From Deltaproteobacteria bacterium (lineage in GTDB: Bacteria > Myxococcota > XYA12-FULL-58-9): a stretch of 64,000 bases of DNA. A program made the translations under genes and the position numbers. The notes beneath the pieces are model-generated. The model was given only the letters and a program-made list of their open reading frames with translations. It searched no databases and was not told where the DNA came from. The number at the start of each line of letters is the position of its first letter. Within the stretch, counting starts at the first letter, position 1. The stretch spans positions 1 through 64,000 of the forward strand of contig JACRCV010000013.1 of NCBI GenBank assembly GCA_016218825.1, written 5' to 3'. This document shows positions 55,530 to 63,538 of the stretch, piece by piece.

Positions 55530-56675
55530 CTACGGCCCGGCGCCGGTGCCAGGGTCCGCGGGCGCCCCGGACTTCGCCAAGAGCACCCGCAGCGCCAGCT
55601 GCGTCCGCGACAGGGCGAGCATCACCGCGACGAGCGCGATCAGCACCCCGGCCGCCAGCGGCCGATTGTACTCGCGGCGGACGAACACCGCCCCGTCGCC
55701 GACCTTGGGGCGGGTCTTGGGCTGCAGCGGCAGGCCGTAGCGCTCCGCCAGCTCCGCCACCCGCACCAGGTGAATCACCGGGACGCCCCGGCCCGCAAAA
55801 CGGCTCATCACCGAGTCGACCGGGACCGTGGCGCGCGGCGGATTGAGGTTCAACCCCGGCGCGAACAGCCTCTTGCCGGCGCGTCGCCCCACCGACGAGG
55901 TCCCACCACCAATATTAATGTAGAGCTTGATCGGCGCGCCGGCGGCGGCCTCCTCGTAGATCCGCATCCGGGCGTCGACGCTCTCCTGGAACGAGCGCGG
56001 CGCCAATGGCCGCAGGCCGTTCTTCGCGATCTCCTCATCGAGGAGCTTGCGCCCCTCGCGCGCCATGCCCAGACCCCGATCCTCGATGCCGCCGCGGGTG
56101 GCGGCGATCGATCGCGATTGGAGCACCTGGCGTTCGACGAGCAGCCGCTCCATCGTCGGCCACATCAGCTCGGGGAAGTTCGCGCCCCACTGCGACGCCG
56201 AGGCGGTGGAGATCGCGATCGGCCTGGCCTTGAGCGTCTGCACCGCGGCGCACACCGCGACGTTCAGGGCCGGGAACGAGCCGGTGAGCCCGAGCGCCAC
56301 GCTGTCGCCCTCGGCGACCCCGGCCCGCTTCATCAGCTCGACGATGACCGCGGCGAAGTTGGGGTTGGCCGAGGTCTGTTTGGCCGGCAGGTCACCACTG
56401 TGGCTGGTGACGCTCGACAACAGCTGGCCGATGACGCCGGTCGCCGCCGGATCCGAGTCGGGGTCGATCGGGATGCCGCGCTTCAAGCGCTCGTCCTTCA
56501 GCACCGCGAGCGCCCTGTCGGCGAGGTGCGCCGCCTCGAGCTTCTCGGCGTAGTAGCCCTGCCGCTCCACCACCGGGCAGCGCTCGGTCACCGCCACCCC
56601 GGCCACCGCCAGCGCCGCGATGATGAGCAACGCCGGACGCGACATCCGCCGCGGCCGCCAGTAGAGCGCCTTCAT
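55530..56675 (-). CDS. pgsW: Poly-gamma-glutamate system protein (PgsW-like)
   Basis: The 381-residue protein has an N-terminal membrane helix and a C-terminal membrane helix near RPLAAGVLIALVAVMLALS. Between them is a large soluble domain with GVAEGDSVALGLTGSFPALN, ISTASASQWGANFPELMWP and INIGGGTSSVG. This layout matches the 'poly-gamma-glutamate system protein' family found beside PgsBC. The role of PgsW is unsettled. The ATG at 56675 overlaps pgsC by four bases. Confidence 0.8.
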   Translation of the reverse strand: MKALYWRPRRMSRPALLIIAALAVAGVAVTERCPVVERQGYYAEKLEAAHLADRALAVLKDERLKRGIPIDPDSDPAATGVIGQLLSSVTSHSGDLPAKQTSANPNFAAVIVELMKRAGVAEGDSVALGLTGSFPALNVAVCAAVQTLKARPIAISTASASQWGANFPELMWPTMERLLVERQVLQSRSIAATRGGIEDRGLGMAREGRKLLDEEIAKNGLRPLAPRSFQESVDARMRIYEEAAAGAPIKLYINIGGGTSSVGRRAGKRLFAPGLNLNPPRATVPVDSVMSRFAGRGVPVIHLVRVAELAERYGLPLQPKTRPKVGDGAVFVRREYNRPLAAGVLIALVAVMLALSRTQLALRVLLAKSGAPADPGTGAGP

Positions 56676-57127
56676 GTCCCGAGCTCCAGGCCGGCGAACA
56701 CCACGAGCAGCAAGCGCACCATCGCCGACGCGGTGACCAGCGCCAGCAAGGTGTCGACGATCCCCTGGCGATCGAGCCACAGGCCGATGAGCCCGGGGAT
56801 GATGTAGCCCACCACCCCCGCCTCGACCCGCCCGAGCGCACCTTGCGACAGCCACTCGACCAACAGGCCGGCCAAGAAGCCGACCAGGATCATCAACACC
56901 GTCCGCCGCCGGCCGAAGACGATGGCCACCGCCGACAGCGCCCGCACCACCGCGAACGTCAAGAGGCCGGCGACCATGGTCAACAGCACGTCGGTCGGAC
57001 GGGTCAGGACCAGCGCGATGTAGCCCGGCACGATCATGCCGCCGGCCGCGGGCCCCAAGGTCTCGGTGAACAGCAGGCTCACCACCAGGCCGAGCCCGAC
57101 GGAGATCGGTAGCAGCGCGCTGGTCAC
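56672..57127 (-). CDS. pgsC: Poly-gamma-glutamate synthase subunit PgsC/CapC
   Basis: The GTG at 57127 overlaps the pgsB stop as GTGA and gives 151 residues. The protein is almost wholly hydrophobic, with four or five membrane helices, GGMIVPGYIALVLTRP near the N-terminus and GAVVGYIIPGLIG-like sequence near the C-terminus, matching CapC/PgsC. PgsC partners PgsB in the membrane synthase. Overlaps on both sides indicate tight coupling. Confidence 0.9.
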   Translation of the reverse strand: MTSALLPISVGLGLVVSLLFTETLGPAAGGMIVPGYIALVLTRPTDVLLTMVAGLLTFAVVRALSAVAIVFGRRRTVLMILVGFLAGLLVEWLSQGALGRVEAGVVGYIIPGLIGLWLDRQGIVDTLLALVTASAMVRLLLVVFAGLELGT

Positions 57128-58326
57128 GATCGGCCCTCCGGCAGCCGGCAGCGGTTCCTGAAGCACTGGCTGAGGGCCAGCCCGGGTCCGGCGATGTTGC
57201 CCATCCCCATGACCAGGGCGCTTTGCCCCGCGAGGCTGACCGTGGTCTCGAAGATCTCCTCGACGCTCTGGTCCTCGGCAAACACCAGGCGCGAGGCGTC
57301 GAGGCCGGCCTTGGTGGCGGCGCGGGCAAACAGGTAGGTCCCGGTGCCGATCAGGATCACGTGATCGGCGGCCGGCCACGAGACCAGCGCCGCGCCGAAC
57401 TGCGCCGAGCGCGCCGGTCGATCGGCCCGGCAGTTGACGATGGCGATGTGGCGCCGGGCCTCGGGGTGCTTGACGCGGGCCTCCTCCCACAGGCGCCGGG
57501 TCGAGGTCGGATCGTTGCCGGCGAAGGCGTTGACGAAGACCACGTGGCGGCCGAAGAACTCCACCAGGTGCTCGGTCAAGGCCCCGGGATCGGGGGCGGC
57601 GCGCCACATCCCGTGGAGCGCGACAGACCGATCGATCCCCAGGTCTGCACAGACTCGAAGGGCGAGCGCGACGTTCTCGGCGTGCTCGAGGTAGCTGAAG
57701 CCCGCCAGGTCCGCGGCGCCGACCGCCGCCACCGCCGCCTCGTCCACCGCGATGATCGTGGTATCCCGGTCGCGAGCCGCGGTCGCCAGGATCTCGAGGT
57801 GGGCGCGCTCCGCGGTGTAGAGCCGACCGCCTCTGGGCGTCGTCGCCGCCAGCGCCAGCGCCACGTCCCGAACCTCGGGCCCCATGACGTCGAGGTGATC
57901 GGGCCGGGCGTTGGTGATCACCCCGTGCGTCGACTGGACGAGCTTCGCCTCTGAGAACCACTGGAGCTCGGGCTGCAGCGCCATGCATTCGATGACCAGG
58001 GCCCGGGCCGAGGACGCCACCGCGGCGGCGACGACCCGCAGCTGCTCGAGGATCGAGGGCGGCGTCGCGCGGTACACCGGCAGCTCGCGTCCGTCCGGCA
58101 GCACCAGGCGCGCCGAGGTGCCGGTGGTCTTGGCGCAGGCGGGAACACCACCGGCGTTCAACCCCGCGGCGATCAGCCGGGTGACGCTCGACTTGCCCCG
58201 GGTGCCGTTGACGTGGATCCGGATGGCCAAACGCCGCAGGTTCCGTCGATGCCACGCGAGCTCGAAGATGCCGACCACGACCAGCCCGAAGACCAGCGCG
58301 ACCAGGATGTGGACCGTCTTGGCCAT
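57124..58326 (-). CDS. pgsB: Poly-gamma-glutamate synthase PgsB/CapB
   Basis: This 400-residue Mur-ligase-like enzyme has an N-terminal membrane anchor and the ATP loop GTRGKSSVTR (residues 41-50). Later blocks include TTGTSARLVLPDG, ALVIECMALQPE, THGVITNARPDHLDVMGP and FVNAFAGNDPTST. PgsB amidates glutamate residues to build poly-gamma-glutamate, a capsule or secreted polymer. It leads the operon pgsB-pgsC-pgsW-CNB. No PgsA-type exporter or PgsE is visible. Confidence 0.93.
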   Translation of the reverse strand: MAKTVHILVALVFGLVVVGIFELAWHRRNLRRLAIRIHVNGTRGKSSVTRLIAAGLNAGGVPACAKTTGTSARLVLPDGRELPVYRATPPSILEQLRVVAAAVASSARALVIECMALQPELQWFSEAKLVQSTHGVITNARPDHLDVMGPEVRDVALALAATTPRGGRLYTAERAHLEILATAARDRDTTIIAVDEAAVAAVGAADLAGFSYLEHAENVALALRVCADLGIDRSVALHGMWRAAPDPGALTEHLVEFFGRHVVFVNAFAGNDPTSTRRLWEEARVKHPEARRHIAIVNCRADRPARSAQFGAALVSWPAADHVILIGTGTYLFARAATKAGLDASRLVFAEDQSVEEIFETTVSLAGQSALVMGMGNIAGPGLALSQCFRNRCRLPEGRS

Positions 58327-58453: not shown

Positions 58454-59761
58454 ATGCCGATGAGCGCCCCTATCACTCGCATCGCGCCGCTCGTGCTCGG
58501 CCTGGCTCTCACCGCCTGCACCCGAGACCAAGACCCGCCGGTGATCGACACCGCCAAGCTCGTCGCCGGGCGCGACAAGATCATCCTCGCCTACGACGCC
58601 AACCTCTGGGGCGAGCTCATCGAGTGTGGGTGAAAGACCAATCGTCTGGGCGGTCTTGCCCGGAGAGCCACGATCGTCGCCGCGATGCGGAGCGAGGCCC
58701 CGACCCTCGTCGTCGAGGCCGGTGACGCGTTCGCCGACACCGTCAGCACCGAGGTGGCCCCCGAGCTGGTCGCAAAGCGCGGCACGGTGATCGTCGAGGC
58801 CTTCAATCGCATCGGCGTCGCGGCCTACACCCCCGGAGAGCGCGATCTCAGCGCCGGCCTCGACCAGCTCAAGGCCTGGGCGGGCGGCGCCAAGTTCCCG
58901 TTCGTCGCCGCCAACCTCGTGGACCGCGACGGCAAGTCGATCTTCGCCCCGAGCGTCGTGCTGCCGGTCGGCGAGCTCGAGGTCGGGGTCGTCGGACTCG
59001 TAGGCCAACGGCTCGGGCTCGCGCCCGACGTGCTGGGCGCGAACGGTTTCGCGGTGTTGGATCCAGTCGCCGCGGCGCGGCAAGCGGTGGCAAAGCTCTC
59101 GGCCGAGGGCGTGGATCTGGTGGTGGCGCTGACGCACCTGGACCCGGGCGAAGAAGAGGCGGTGCAGGCCGCGGCGCCGGCGATCGCGCTCGTCGTCGGC
59201 AGCCACGCCGGCCGAATGTTGCACGTGCCGCGGCCGCTCAACCCCGGCCTCGCCGAGCGCGCCGCAGTGGCGGTCGACGCCGGCTCGCGCGGCAAGTACC
59301 TCGGGCGCCTCGACCTCTACCTGCCGCGCACCGCGAAACGGCCGCTCTTGCTCGCGAACCTGAACCAGGCCGGCGAGCTCCGCGGTCAGGTGTTGGCGCT
59401 GCGGCGGGAGGTGGCACGCGCCGAGGAGAACATCAAGAAGGCGAAGACCGAGCCCGCGTCCAGCGAAGCGCAGCGGGCGCGGCGACTGCAGGGCCTGCAG
59501 GCGTCTCTGGAGCGCAACCGGCGGACCCTCGAGGACCGCCGCGCCGAGCTCGCACGGGTGCCGGCCCCCGATCCGTCCTACGCGTGGTTCAAGAACGAGC
59601 TCGTCCCGGTGTCGGTGAGCCTGATCGCCGCGCCGGAGATCAGCGCGTCCGTCCAGGCGTTCCTCGGCCAGAGCGCGACGACGAGCGCCGCGGCCACCGC
59701 CAGACCGACCGCCGCGCCGGCGGCAGCCGGACGACCGTCGTCACCCGCCCCGGCCCGGTGA
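58454..59761 (+). CDS. Candidate selenoprotein: metallophosphatase-like lipoprotein with in-frame TGA
   Basis: The frame from the ATG at 58454 (another at 58460) runs to 59761 with one interruption, a TGA at 58631-58633 (residue 60). The signal peptide ends LALTAC (Cys22), a lipoprotein. The TGA stands in IECG-x-KTNRLGGLARR, where related proteins have Cys-Gly-Cys, so Sec is plausible. Downstream are blocks of a divergent UshA-type metallophosphatase (LVVEAGDAFADT, VDLVVALTHLDPGEEEAV, LVVGSHAG), but the D-x-H metal motif is missing. A coiled coil (about residues 315-375) and an Ala-rich tail follow. Without readthrough the frame would encode 59 residues. A nonsense mutation or sequencing error would look the same. 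Confidence 0.6.
58628..58661 (+). promoter_or_regulatory. SECIS-like hairpin directly after the TGA
   Basis: Bases directly after the TGA form AAGACC (58634-58639), a 12-base loop and GGTCTT (58652-58657), a perfect 6-bp stem. GGG (58628-58630) can pair with CCC (58659-58661) below it, leaving the TGA in an internal loop. Bacterial SECIS elements sit just 3' of the Sec codon with a G/U-containing apical loop; here GT is in the loop. This is a hand-drawn fold, not a scored one. Confidence 0.45.
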
Positions 59762-59887: not shown

Positions 59888-62800
59888 ATGAATCAGCACC
59901 GCTCCGGTCTCGTCGTAATGGTCCCGCTCTTCGCTCTCGCCGCCTGCAACCAGCGGGTCGACGGCGATCGCGGTTGGACCGACTCCGCCGCAGGCGACTC
60001 CGATGCGCACCCGGTGGGTGATCCGCGGCACGGCGACGGCAACGGCGGCGATCACCGCGCCGGCGACAGCGGCGGCGACGTCGGTCCCGATCAGAGCTGC
60101 AACCGCACCTGGCCGGTGACCGCGGGCGGCGGCTGCAATCTGCAGGCCGGCAACCGCGCCCACGTGCTGTTGCGCGCCGATCTGCTGCTGCCGGATCAGA
60201 TCCTGGCCGCGGCTGAGCTTCTGGTGACCGGCGGCGTCATCGCCTGCGCCGGCTGCGACTGCTCGGCGAGCGCCGGCTACGCCGACGCCACGGTCGTCAC
60301 CTGCGGCAACGCCTTGATCTCTCCCGGGCTGATCAACGCCCACGACCACATCGGCTTCACCCAGGGGCCGCCGGTGGCGCACGGGACGACACGCTACGAG
60401 CACCGCCACGAGTGGCGCAAAGGCATGAACGGCAAGCCCAAGATCCCGGTGCCGGCCAACAGCAACGCGCAGGGCGAGGCCTGGGGCGAGATGCGGCAGG
60501 TGATGGCCGGGACCACGAGCCTGTTCGGCTCCGGCGGCGCCGCCGGGTTCCTGCGCAACCTCGACGAAGGGACCCACCTCGAGGGCCTGGCGCACGGCCT
60601 CGCCGACTACAGCACCTTCCCGCTCGGTGATTCGTCCGGGATCCTGGCGGCCGCCGGCTGCACCACCTACCCGTCGATCGACGATCCGGCAAGCGAGCAA
60701 AGCTTCGCCGCCTACGTGCCGCACGTCGGCGAGGGCATCGGCCCGGAGGCGCGCAACGAGTTCTTGTGCATGTCGGGGACCGGGAGCGGCGCCAAGGACC
60801 TGCTCTTGCCGACCGCCGCCTTCATCCACGGCATCGGGCTGAAGAGCGCTGACATCGCGCTGATGGCCACCGACAGCGCCGGGCTCATCTGGTCGCCGCG
60901 CAGCAACACCGATCTCTACGGGAACACCGCCGAGGCGCCGATCTACGACCGGCTGGGGGTGCGCATCGCGCTCGGCACCGACTGGACCGCGACCGGCTCG
61001 GTCACGATCCTGCGCGAGCTCGCCTGCGCCGACAGCTGGAACACGACCTACTGGGGTGGCTACTTCTCGGACGCCGACCTGGTGAGCATGGTCACCACCT
61101 GGGCCGCCGAGCTGTTGGGCTACGATGACGTGCTCGGCAGCCTGGTGCCCGGAAAGGTCGCCGACATCACGATCTGGAACAACGCCCTCCACCCCGGCCG
61201 GCGCGCCATCATCGACGCCCGGGTCGCAGACGTCCTGTTGGTGTGGCGCGGCGATCGCGCGTTGTACGGCGACCAGACGATCATCGAGGGGCTCGCGAGC
61301 GCCTCGGAGTGCGAGCTCGTCGACGTCTGCGGCCGGGCGAAGCGCCTGTGCGCGACCCGCGAGATCGGCGCGACGATGGCGAGCGTCAAGACCACGCTCG
61401 GCGCCGCGGCCTACGGCCTGTTCTTCTGTGACACCCCGCAGAACGAGCCGACCTGTCAGCCGTCGCGCCCCGGCGAGTACGACGGCCAGCCGGGCGCGGG
61501 CGACCGCGATGGCGATGGCGTGGCCGACGTCAACGACAACTGCCCGGAGGTCTTCAACCCCGGCATCCCGGTGGACCTCGATCTCCAGTCCGACAGCGAC
61601 AGCGACGGGCAGGGCGACCTCTGCGACCCCTGCCCGCTCAATCCGCACGCGACGGTATGCGCCGCCATCGACCCCAACGACCGCGACGGCGACCGCGTCC
61701 CGAACGCGGCCGACAACTGCCCGTCGGACGCCAACCCCGACCAGGCGGACGGCGACCACGACGGCAAGGGCGACGCCTGCGACTCGTGCCCGAGCGACCC
61801 CAACCCCGCCGACGCCCCCTGCCCGGCCACGATCTACGCCGTCAAGCAGCGCCAGATCCCGGTGGGCCGCAACGTCCAGATCCCCGACGCCATCGTCACC
61901 GCCGTCGGCAGCAGCGACTTCTTCATCCAGGTGGACCCGGCGCTGGCCGGCTACCCCGGCGTCGGCCACTCCGGCCTCTACGTGTTCAACAACGCCAACG
62001 CGCCCCTGCCCGCGGTCGGCAACCGCGTCAGCGTCACCGGCACGGTGCGCGACTTCCACGGCGGCATCGAGCTCGATCAGCCGGCGATCGTCGTGCTGGA
62101 CGCGGGTCCGGTGCCCCTCGACCCGATCGTGATCCTGCCCGCCGCCGTCATCCCGGGCGGCGCCGATCAAGATCGGCTCGAGGGCGTGCTGGTGCGGATC
62201 GAAGACCTCACCGTCCTCGACACCACACCGACGGGCGCGGTCGGCGAGGTCGTCAGCGGCGAGTTCACCGTGACCGGCGGCCTGAGCGTCGACGACGGGC
62301 TCTACCTCGTCACCCCGTTCGTCAGCGAGGGCGAGACCCTGGCGGCGGTCACCGGGGTGCTGCGCTACTCGTGGAACCGCGACAAGCTCTGGCCACGCGC
62401 CGCCGCCGACATCGGCCGTGGCCCGCCGGCGCTGCTCTCCTTCGGCCCGGCCGCGGTCTACGTCTATGACCACCAGACCGGCAGCAGCGTGCCGACGCTC
62501 AGGGTGACGCTCACCACCCCCGGCACCTCCCCGGTCATCGTCCCGATCACGAGCGCCGACGCGACCACGGTGGCTGCGGTGGGCGACGCGGTCACCGTCC
62601 CCGCCGGGCAAACGAGCGCCGACGTGACCCTGAGCTCCGGAAACGCCGGCGGCCCGGTGCAGCTCACCGCGACCTTGAACGGTGCGCCGCAGAGCGCGGC
62701 GGTGACCGTGCTCGACGGCGCGGCCGTCGCCCTGCCGGCCGCGATCGATCCGGCGACCGTCGTCGTCGCCCCAGGCCAAGCCGTGACCCTCGCGGTGGTC

Positions 62801-63538
62801 CTCGCGACCCCCGCGCCCCCCGCCGGCCAAGTGCTGTCCCTCGCCGCGACCGGGGTGGCGCTGAGCGTGCCCGCCTCGGTCACCGTGCCCTTCATGCAGG
62901 CGCGCCAGGACTTCTCGCTCACCGCGGGGACCACCGCCGGTACCGCCACCCTCACCGCCACTGCCGGCGGCGCCAGCGTCACCGCCACCGTGAACGTCGC
63001 CGCGGTCGTGGGCCCGGGGCTGATCCTGGTCGAGGTCCTCTACGACCCGCGCAGCACCGACACCAACCTCGAATGGGTGAAGCTCTACAACGGCGGCGCC
63101 GAGACCGTGGACCTCGCCGGCTACTCTCTCGGCTGGGGCGGCACGAGCTACACCAACGGCAAGCTCCAGCTCAGCGGCAGCGTCGCGGCCGGCGCCTGCG
63201 CGGTCGTCGGCGGACCGGTCTCCGACGCCGCCAACGCCGATCCCGTCCTCGGCCAGGCGATCGACTTCAACCCCGATCTGCAGAACGGCGGCAACGCCGC
63301 CGACGGCATCGCGCTCTTCCACCTGCCGGCGGCCCAGGTCCTCGCGACCTCGAAGCCGGTCGACGCGGTGCTCTACGGCGGGCCGACCAACAGCTCGCGG
63401 CTGATCGGCCCGGACGGCCAGCCGGCGCCGGTCAACGTGCCGGCCGCGCCCTCCGGCGACACCCTGCTGCGAACCGGCCGCGGCACGTGGATCGACAACC
63501 CGACCCCGAACAGCGTCCTGTGCGTCGTGATCCCGTAG
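59888..63538 (+). CDS. Multidomain surface lipoprotein: amidohydrolase, TSP3-like repeats, lamin-tail-like domain
   Basis: The 1216-residue protein has a lipoprotein signal (LFALAAC). An Asp/Gly-rich linker follows, then an amidohydrolase-type domain (about residues 90-500) with the metal site LINAHDHIGF, a later His in TAAFIHGIG and Asp in LGTDWTATG. Next are calcium-binding thrombospondin-type-3-like repeats (DRDGDGVADVNDNCPEVFNP and two further Cys-Asp copies, about 535-640). A beta-rich OB-like region and a Ca-x-beta-like Ala/Thr region follow. The C-terminal ~170 residues resemble a lamin-tail domain (LEWVKLYNGGAETVDLAGYSL). Catalytic residues look intact. Substrate is unknown. It stands alone, after a 126-bp gap. 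Confidence 0.8.
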   Translation: MNQHRSGLVVMVPLFALAACNQRVDGDRGWTDSAAGDSDAHPVGDPRHGDGNGGDHRAGDSGGDVGPDQSCNRTWPVTAGGGCNLQAGNRAHVLLRADLLLPDQILAAAELLVTGGVIACAGCDCSASAGYADATVVTCGNALISPGLINAHDHIGFTQGPPVAHGTTRYEHRHEWRKGMNGKPKIPVPANSNAQGEAWGEMRQVMAGTTSLFGSGGAAGFLRNLDEGTHLEGLAHGLADYSTFPLGDSSGILAAAGCTTYPSIDDPASEQSFAAYVPHVGEGIGPEARNEFLCMSGTGSGAKDLLLPTAAFIHGIGLKSADIALMATDSAGLIWSPRSNTDLYGNTAEAPIYDRLGVRIALGTDWTATGSVTILRELACADSWNTTYWGGYFSDADLVSMVTTWAAELLGYDDVLGSLVPGKVADITIWNNALHPGRRAIIDARVADVLLVWRGDRALYGDQTIIEGLASASECELVDVCGRAKRLCATREIGATMASVKTTLGAAAYGLFFCDTPQNEPTCQPSRPGEYDGQPGAGDRDGDGVADVNDNCPEVFNPGIPVDLDLQSDSDSDGQGDLCDPCPLNPHATVCAAIDPNDRDGDRVPNAADNCPSDANPDQADGDHDGKGDACDSCPSDPNPADAPCPATIYAVKQRQIPVGRNVQIPDAIVTAVGSSDFFIQVDPALAGYPGVGHSGLYVFNNANAPLPAVGNRVSVTGTVRDFHGGIELDQPAIVVLDAGPVPLDPIVILPAAVIPGGADQDRLEGVLVRIEDLTVLDTTPTGAVGEVVSGEFTVTGGLSVDDGLYLVTPFVSEGETLAAVTGVLRYSWNRDKLWPRAAADIGRGPPALLSFGPAAVYVYDHQTGSSVPTLRVTLTTPGTSPVIVPITSADATTVAAVGDAVTVPAGQTSADVTLSSGNAGGPVQLTATLNGAPQSAAVTVLDGAAVALPAAIDPATVVVAPGQAVTLAVVLATPAPPAGQVLSLAATGVALSVPASVTVPFMQARQDFSLTAGTTAGTATLTATAGGASVTATVNVAAVVGPGLILVEVLYDPRSTDTNLEWVKLYNGGAETVDLAGYSLGWGGTSYTNGKLQLSGSVAAGACAVVGGPVSDAANADPVLGQAIDFNPDLQNGGNAADGIALFHLPAAQVLATSKPVDAVLYGGPTNSSRLIGPDGQPAPVNVPAAPSGDTLLRTGRGTWIDNPTPNSVLCVVIP

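Follow-up and report, generated by a model that had tools for sequence, protein, structure and literature searches.

A short UshA-like lipoprotein of the Myxococcota with a UGA codon very probably decoded as selenocysteine

The window, i.e., the whole stretch of 64,000 nucleotides that was analysed, comes from a draft genome of 121 contigs with a completeness of 96.5%. Its forward strand carries a frame (58454-59761) that is open when TGA is read as a residue; it contains two TGA codons only, one internal (codon 60, 58631-58633) and one terminal. The features of the locus are as follows:

58454..59761, + strand: coding sequence of a predicted UshA-like selenoprotein, 435 aa including Sec60 (alternative start ATG at 58460)
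58454..58519, + strand: lipoprotein signal peptide with lipobox LTAC, as read from the translation and not from a signal-peptide program
58517..58519, + strand: codon of Cys22, the putative lipidated residue, read from the translation
58625..58633, + strand: C58-G59-U60 (CxU) motif, with the TGT of Cys58 at 58625-58627 and the TGA of Sec at 58631-58633
58645..58664, + strand: putative bacterial SECIS, with a 7-bp stem (58645-58651/58658-58664) and the loop GGUCUU (58652-58657)
59759..59761, + strand: terminal TGA stop, from the translation

Divergent from this gene, the minus strand (55533-58326) encodes CapB-like (Mur ligase) and CapC proteins along with a 384-aa protein lacking any Pfam match, an arrangement that resembles a poly-gamma-glutamate/capsule synthesis cluster. 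Downstream, on the plus strand (59888-63538), lies the gene of a 1216-aa lipoprotein-like protein in which thrombospondin type 3 repeats and a lamin-tail-domain match below threshold are oddly combined with an amidohydrolase domain.

Under the standard code, the frame falls into a 240-aa ORF running to 58633 and a 358-aa ORF starting at 58685; standard annotation would thus split or truncate the gene at the UGA, a gene model that the Sec reading corrects. The same frame looks coding on both sides of the TGA, because the G+C content by codon position matches (0.66/0.47/0.90 on the 5' side vs. 0.77/0.53/0.90 on the 3' side). Together with the translation, this confirms the in-frame TGA in an otherwise open, coding-like frame described by the first-pass annotation, except that the cysteine numbered 59 therein is actually Cys58. 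Compared to its closest relative (G001), which belongs to the same genus and has the same TGA, the protein shows 15/24 identical residues at positions 36-59 and 148/350 at positions 61-420, so that the UGA is flanked on both sides by conserved coding sequence.

Homologues were searched for with the protein itself in 97 related genomes and with the NCBIfam model NF041198 in 195 genomes of the phylum. Numerous matches are interrupted by a single TGA, whereas others are devoid of internal TGA. At the position equivalent to codon 60, 64 non-identical genes (including the one in the window) have TGA and 27 have TGC or TGT, which bears out the presence of a cysteine at the equivalent site of relatives, as stated in the first-pass annotation; this Sec:Cys ratio is no census, since part of the loci were fetched as TGA-listed. 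The absence of other stops is unaffected by this sampling: neither TAA nor TAG, for which a check had been recommended, occurs at site 60 among the fetched family members (64 TGA and 27 TGC/TGT genes). The family alignment shows Cys58 in every row and either Sec or Cys at site 60. A scan of genome contigs with the single protein as query further returned four 5'-nucleotidase-type relatives, in none of which a pattern scan detected the CGU motif, and plasmids yielded no near-identical DNA when searched.

These distributions bear on two trivial explanations of the TGA. The first would be a pseudogene, in which a Cys-containing UshA-like gene has recently suffered a nonsense mutation from TGC to TGA; a single-base change from either TGC or TGT would be enough, and Cys homologues exist. 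The second would be a sequencing or assembly error, for which a draft in 121 contigs leaves some room. However, both a recent mutation and a sequencing error can be discounted because G001 has the same TGA at 44% identity. Moreover, the 64 non-identical genes with this TGA are spread over many genera, the frame shows conservation and no further interruption over the 375 codons that follow, and the TGA is accompanied by a GGUCU sequence and a paired stem (see below), which makes the pseudogene very improbable. As for an error, it would create neither the same-site TGA in many other genomes nor the SECIS features found with it, and its probability is close to negligible. Decoding of the TGA as Sec is the reading that we follow below.

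The source genome holds selA, selB, selC and selD, i.e., the Sec genes that the first-pass annotation had suggested looking for. On contig C115, selA (C115:10782-12098; 472 bits) adjoins selB (C115:12134-14026; 295 bits), and both score over their curated cut-offs. A tRNA-Sec with anticodon tca (73 bits) is located on C70, the second RF01852 match of the genome being a tRNA-Ser with anticodon tga. Finally, selD (378 bits) is found on C120 and has its own in-frame TGA (CAGU) near the N-terminus (L009:1501-2430, i.e., G000:C120:59255-60184), a site at which SelD usually has Sec or Cys; hence, the SelD of this genome is predicted to be a selenoprotein itself.

Across the genomes, selA scores over the cut-off in nearly all those checked that have the TGA form. 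Conversely, it is absent from G008, G012, G013, G015, G017, G021, G025, G087 and G090, for none of which a TGA form is listed, and the selA-less genomes in which the site was read (G008, G013, G017 and G090) have a Cys codon at position 60. The Cys form does not require the loss of the Sec machinery, because G023 and G029 combine selA with the Cys form, while both forms coexist in G092, G125, G126 and G128. In G125, G126 and G128, a TGA copy of the short form occurs as a paralogue of one or more TGC copies (L107, L109, L110 and L111). The cleanest case is G090, where all that is left of selA is a trace of 52 positions and selB matches stay below the cut-off: its gene (L031) has TGC at the site and GGC TTG in the loop, whereas its congeners G026, G084 and G080 (L041, L042 and L085) have TGA and GGT CTG. 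This is a natural Sec-to-Cys switch, in which the species without selA and full-length selB has Cys at the site while its congeners keep Sec, and such a close pair carries the most weight in the comparison. The one exception seen is G016, which has the TGA form but no detected selA; this lack is likely an assembly gap, because two contigs (L124 and L125, on C66 and C68) have N-terminal fragments of selB no more than about 130 bases from an end.

The published hallmark of a bacterial SECIS is a conserved guanosine within an apical loop of small size (PMC1088965). In the window, the loop of the hairpin begins at +19 relative to the UGA. The Sec genes have a hairpin of this kind in common (stem at 11-18/25-32 nt after the UGA, loop from +19); in fdhF, as checked against E. 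coli genomes, GGUCU also starts 19 nt after the UGA. GGUCU occupies positions +19 to +23 in 42/44 distinct Sec sequences and in 1/27 Cys sequences, the latter being mostly of other subfamilies. To obtain a null expectation, we computed 2000 shuffles in which synonymous codons were drawn according to the usage of each gene. The Sec genes have a mean of 7.25 stem pairs out of 8, compared to 4.95 +/- 0.18 in the shuffles, whereas the Cys genes remain near the null (4.11 vs. 3.86 +/- 0.19). Similarly, GGUCU is observed in 95% of the Sec genes against 4.5% expected, and for both measures 0/2000 simulations come near the observed values. However, independence of the sequences is assumed in spite of their relatedness, and these numbers are thus indications rather than probabilities. 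The case for a SECIS, i.e., a hairpin just 3' of the UGA with a conserved G(U) in its apical loop, rests on this comparison, because the window hairpin folded alone is not unusually stable (z = -1.0). A scan of the window with Rfam at gathering thresholds gave no match.

Taken together, the Sec machinery, the codons of the homologues and the SECIS comparison bear out the proposal of the first-pass annotation that Sec is inserted at the TGA. Its statement that no selenoprotein of this family had been described is incorrect: Global Ocean Sampling data already revealed UshA-like COG0737 CxU selenoproteins in 2008 (PMC2398784), and these are listed in reviews (PMC9312934, PMC13188914) and have an NCBIfam model, NF041198 (UshA_like_PCGU, the COG0737 CxU family of that survey). 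Our protein matches this model over profile positions 17-375 of 519 (E=3e-50) and has the C-G-U/C motif at the same place in the UshA-like domain; a further shared feature is the coexistence of Sec and Cys forms. It differs from NF041198 by an ECGU motif instead of PCGU and, compared to the long members, by the lack of the C-terminal cytochrome c554-like domain (profile positions ~376-519). Its 171 bits do not reach the curated cut-off of 275 bits, a shortfall that the absence of the C-terminal domain could explain. In this protein, Pfam gave no match above its cut-offs, and a cytochrome c554-like domain was not found. Long members in which PF13435 (cytochrome c554-like) is found include L048 and L020, the latter with TGA as well, and, in the family alignment, repeated CxxCH motifs are absent from 63/65 Sec rows and present in 21/27 Cys rows. 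A second UshA-related, Sec-containing family, NF049981 (UshA-like family 2), matches weakly (E=4e-10, residues 45-127), with 39.7 bits being far below its cut-off of 140, and is characterised by a CxxU motif rather than CxU (2026 review). The gene of the window therefore encodes a short-form member of an already described, functionally uncharacterised UshA-like selenoprotein family, of which we found no discussion in myxobacteria in the literature searched. On sequence grounds, we consider it very probable that its TGA is decoded as Sec and that it is akin to the UshA-like family.

Regarding the fold, a Foldseek search matched 5'-nucleotidases and cyclic phosphodiesterases (E ~1e-15). The AlphaFold model, built from a 4-row alignment, has a mean pLDDT of 59.9 and falls below 50 in the segment of the CGU motif, for which reason no geometric claim is drawn from it. 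Based on sequence homology and the Foldseek matches, and with the model being of low confidence, the protein adopts the fold of a UshA/5'-nucleotidase N-terminal domain. The protein thus resembles the UshA/5'-nucleotidase/YfkN metallophosphatases in its N-terminal alpha/beta fold and by sequence homology, but it has lost their metal motifs, matches them over the N-terminal domain only and has gained a Sec motif. When aligned to canonical relatives, DxH is replaced by N50-x-W52, GNH by G-E129-R130 and GHxH by SHAG (G253 for the second His), so that D91, H228 and H251 are the only ligands kept from the metallophosphatase set (DxH, GD, GNH, H, GHxH), while in the majority of Sec relatives positions 91 and 228 are occupied by N and A, respectively. 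Consequently, the term "metallophosphatase-like", used in the first-pass annotation, holds for fold and homology but not for the metal ligands, most of which are missing. Distant homology also extends to the SoxB thiosulfohydrolase (TIGR04486; E=1e-15, residues 63-290), with 57 bits for a cut-off of 550 and an aligned region that starts after the CGU motif.

In the alignment, the CGU motif sits in the segment directly after the DxH site. Because of this location and of the loss of most metal ligands, the motif may well be a periplasmic thiol/selenol site for redox reactions or electron transfer, a role that we hold to be rather likely. An alternative would be a true selenoprotein that is still a metal-dependent phosphohydrolase or a SoxB-like hydrolase, with Sec serving as an additional metal ligand or as a residue of the substrate site. 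The homology to 5'-nucleotidases and SoxB, the retention of D91, H228 and H251 in this protein, and the position of Sec60, which aligns close to where DxH used to be, speak in its favour. Nevertheless, this hydrolase appears rather unlikely, given the loss of DxH (N50, W52), of GNH (E129, R130) and of the second His of GHxH (G253), to which most Sec relatives add the replacements at 91 and 228; furthermore, redox chemistry is favoured by the cytochromes fused to the long members and by Cys58, which is invariant and precedes Sec by two residues.

Overall, the gene very probably encodes an exported lipoprotein of the UshA-like (COG0737/NF041198) selenoprotein family. Comparison strongly supports that SelB and tRNA-Sec decode the UGA of codon 60 as Sec, guided by a stem-loop starting about 11 nt 3' of the UGA and showing GGUCU at +19 to +23. 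The product retains the UshA/5'-nucleotidase N-terminal fold without most of the dimetal ligands. Under the redox reading, Cys58-Gly-Sec60 would be its active centre, forming a reversible selenylsulfide. In the long members, the fused c554-type cytochrome domain would act as the electron partner, whereas the short form would need a separate one. No redox partner was found near the short forms examined: the genes upstream are TPR and Che genes in G077 and a DNA methylase in G049, the relatives checked showed no cytochrome nearby, and in the window the neighbours are those described above.

At present, the widespread short clade with Sec falls below the NCBIfam cut-off. Tentatively, this cytochrome-less clade with a degenerate metal site could represent a phosphatase fold turned into a periplasmic selenol redox protein; its chemistry would then differ from that of the nucleotidases as well as from that of the long UshA-like proteins with a fused cytochrome, and it would be widespread in the phylum, a description that we did not encounter in the literature searched.
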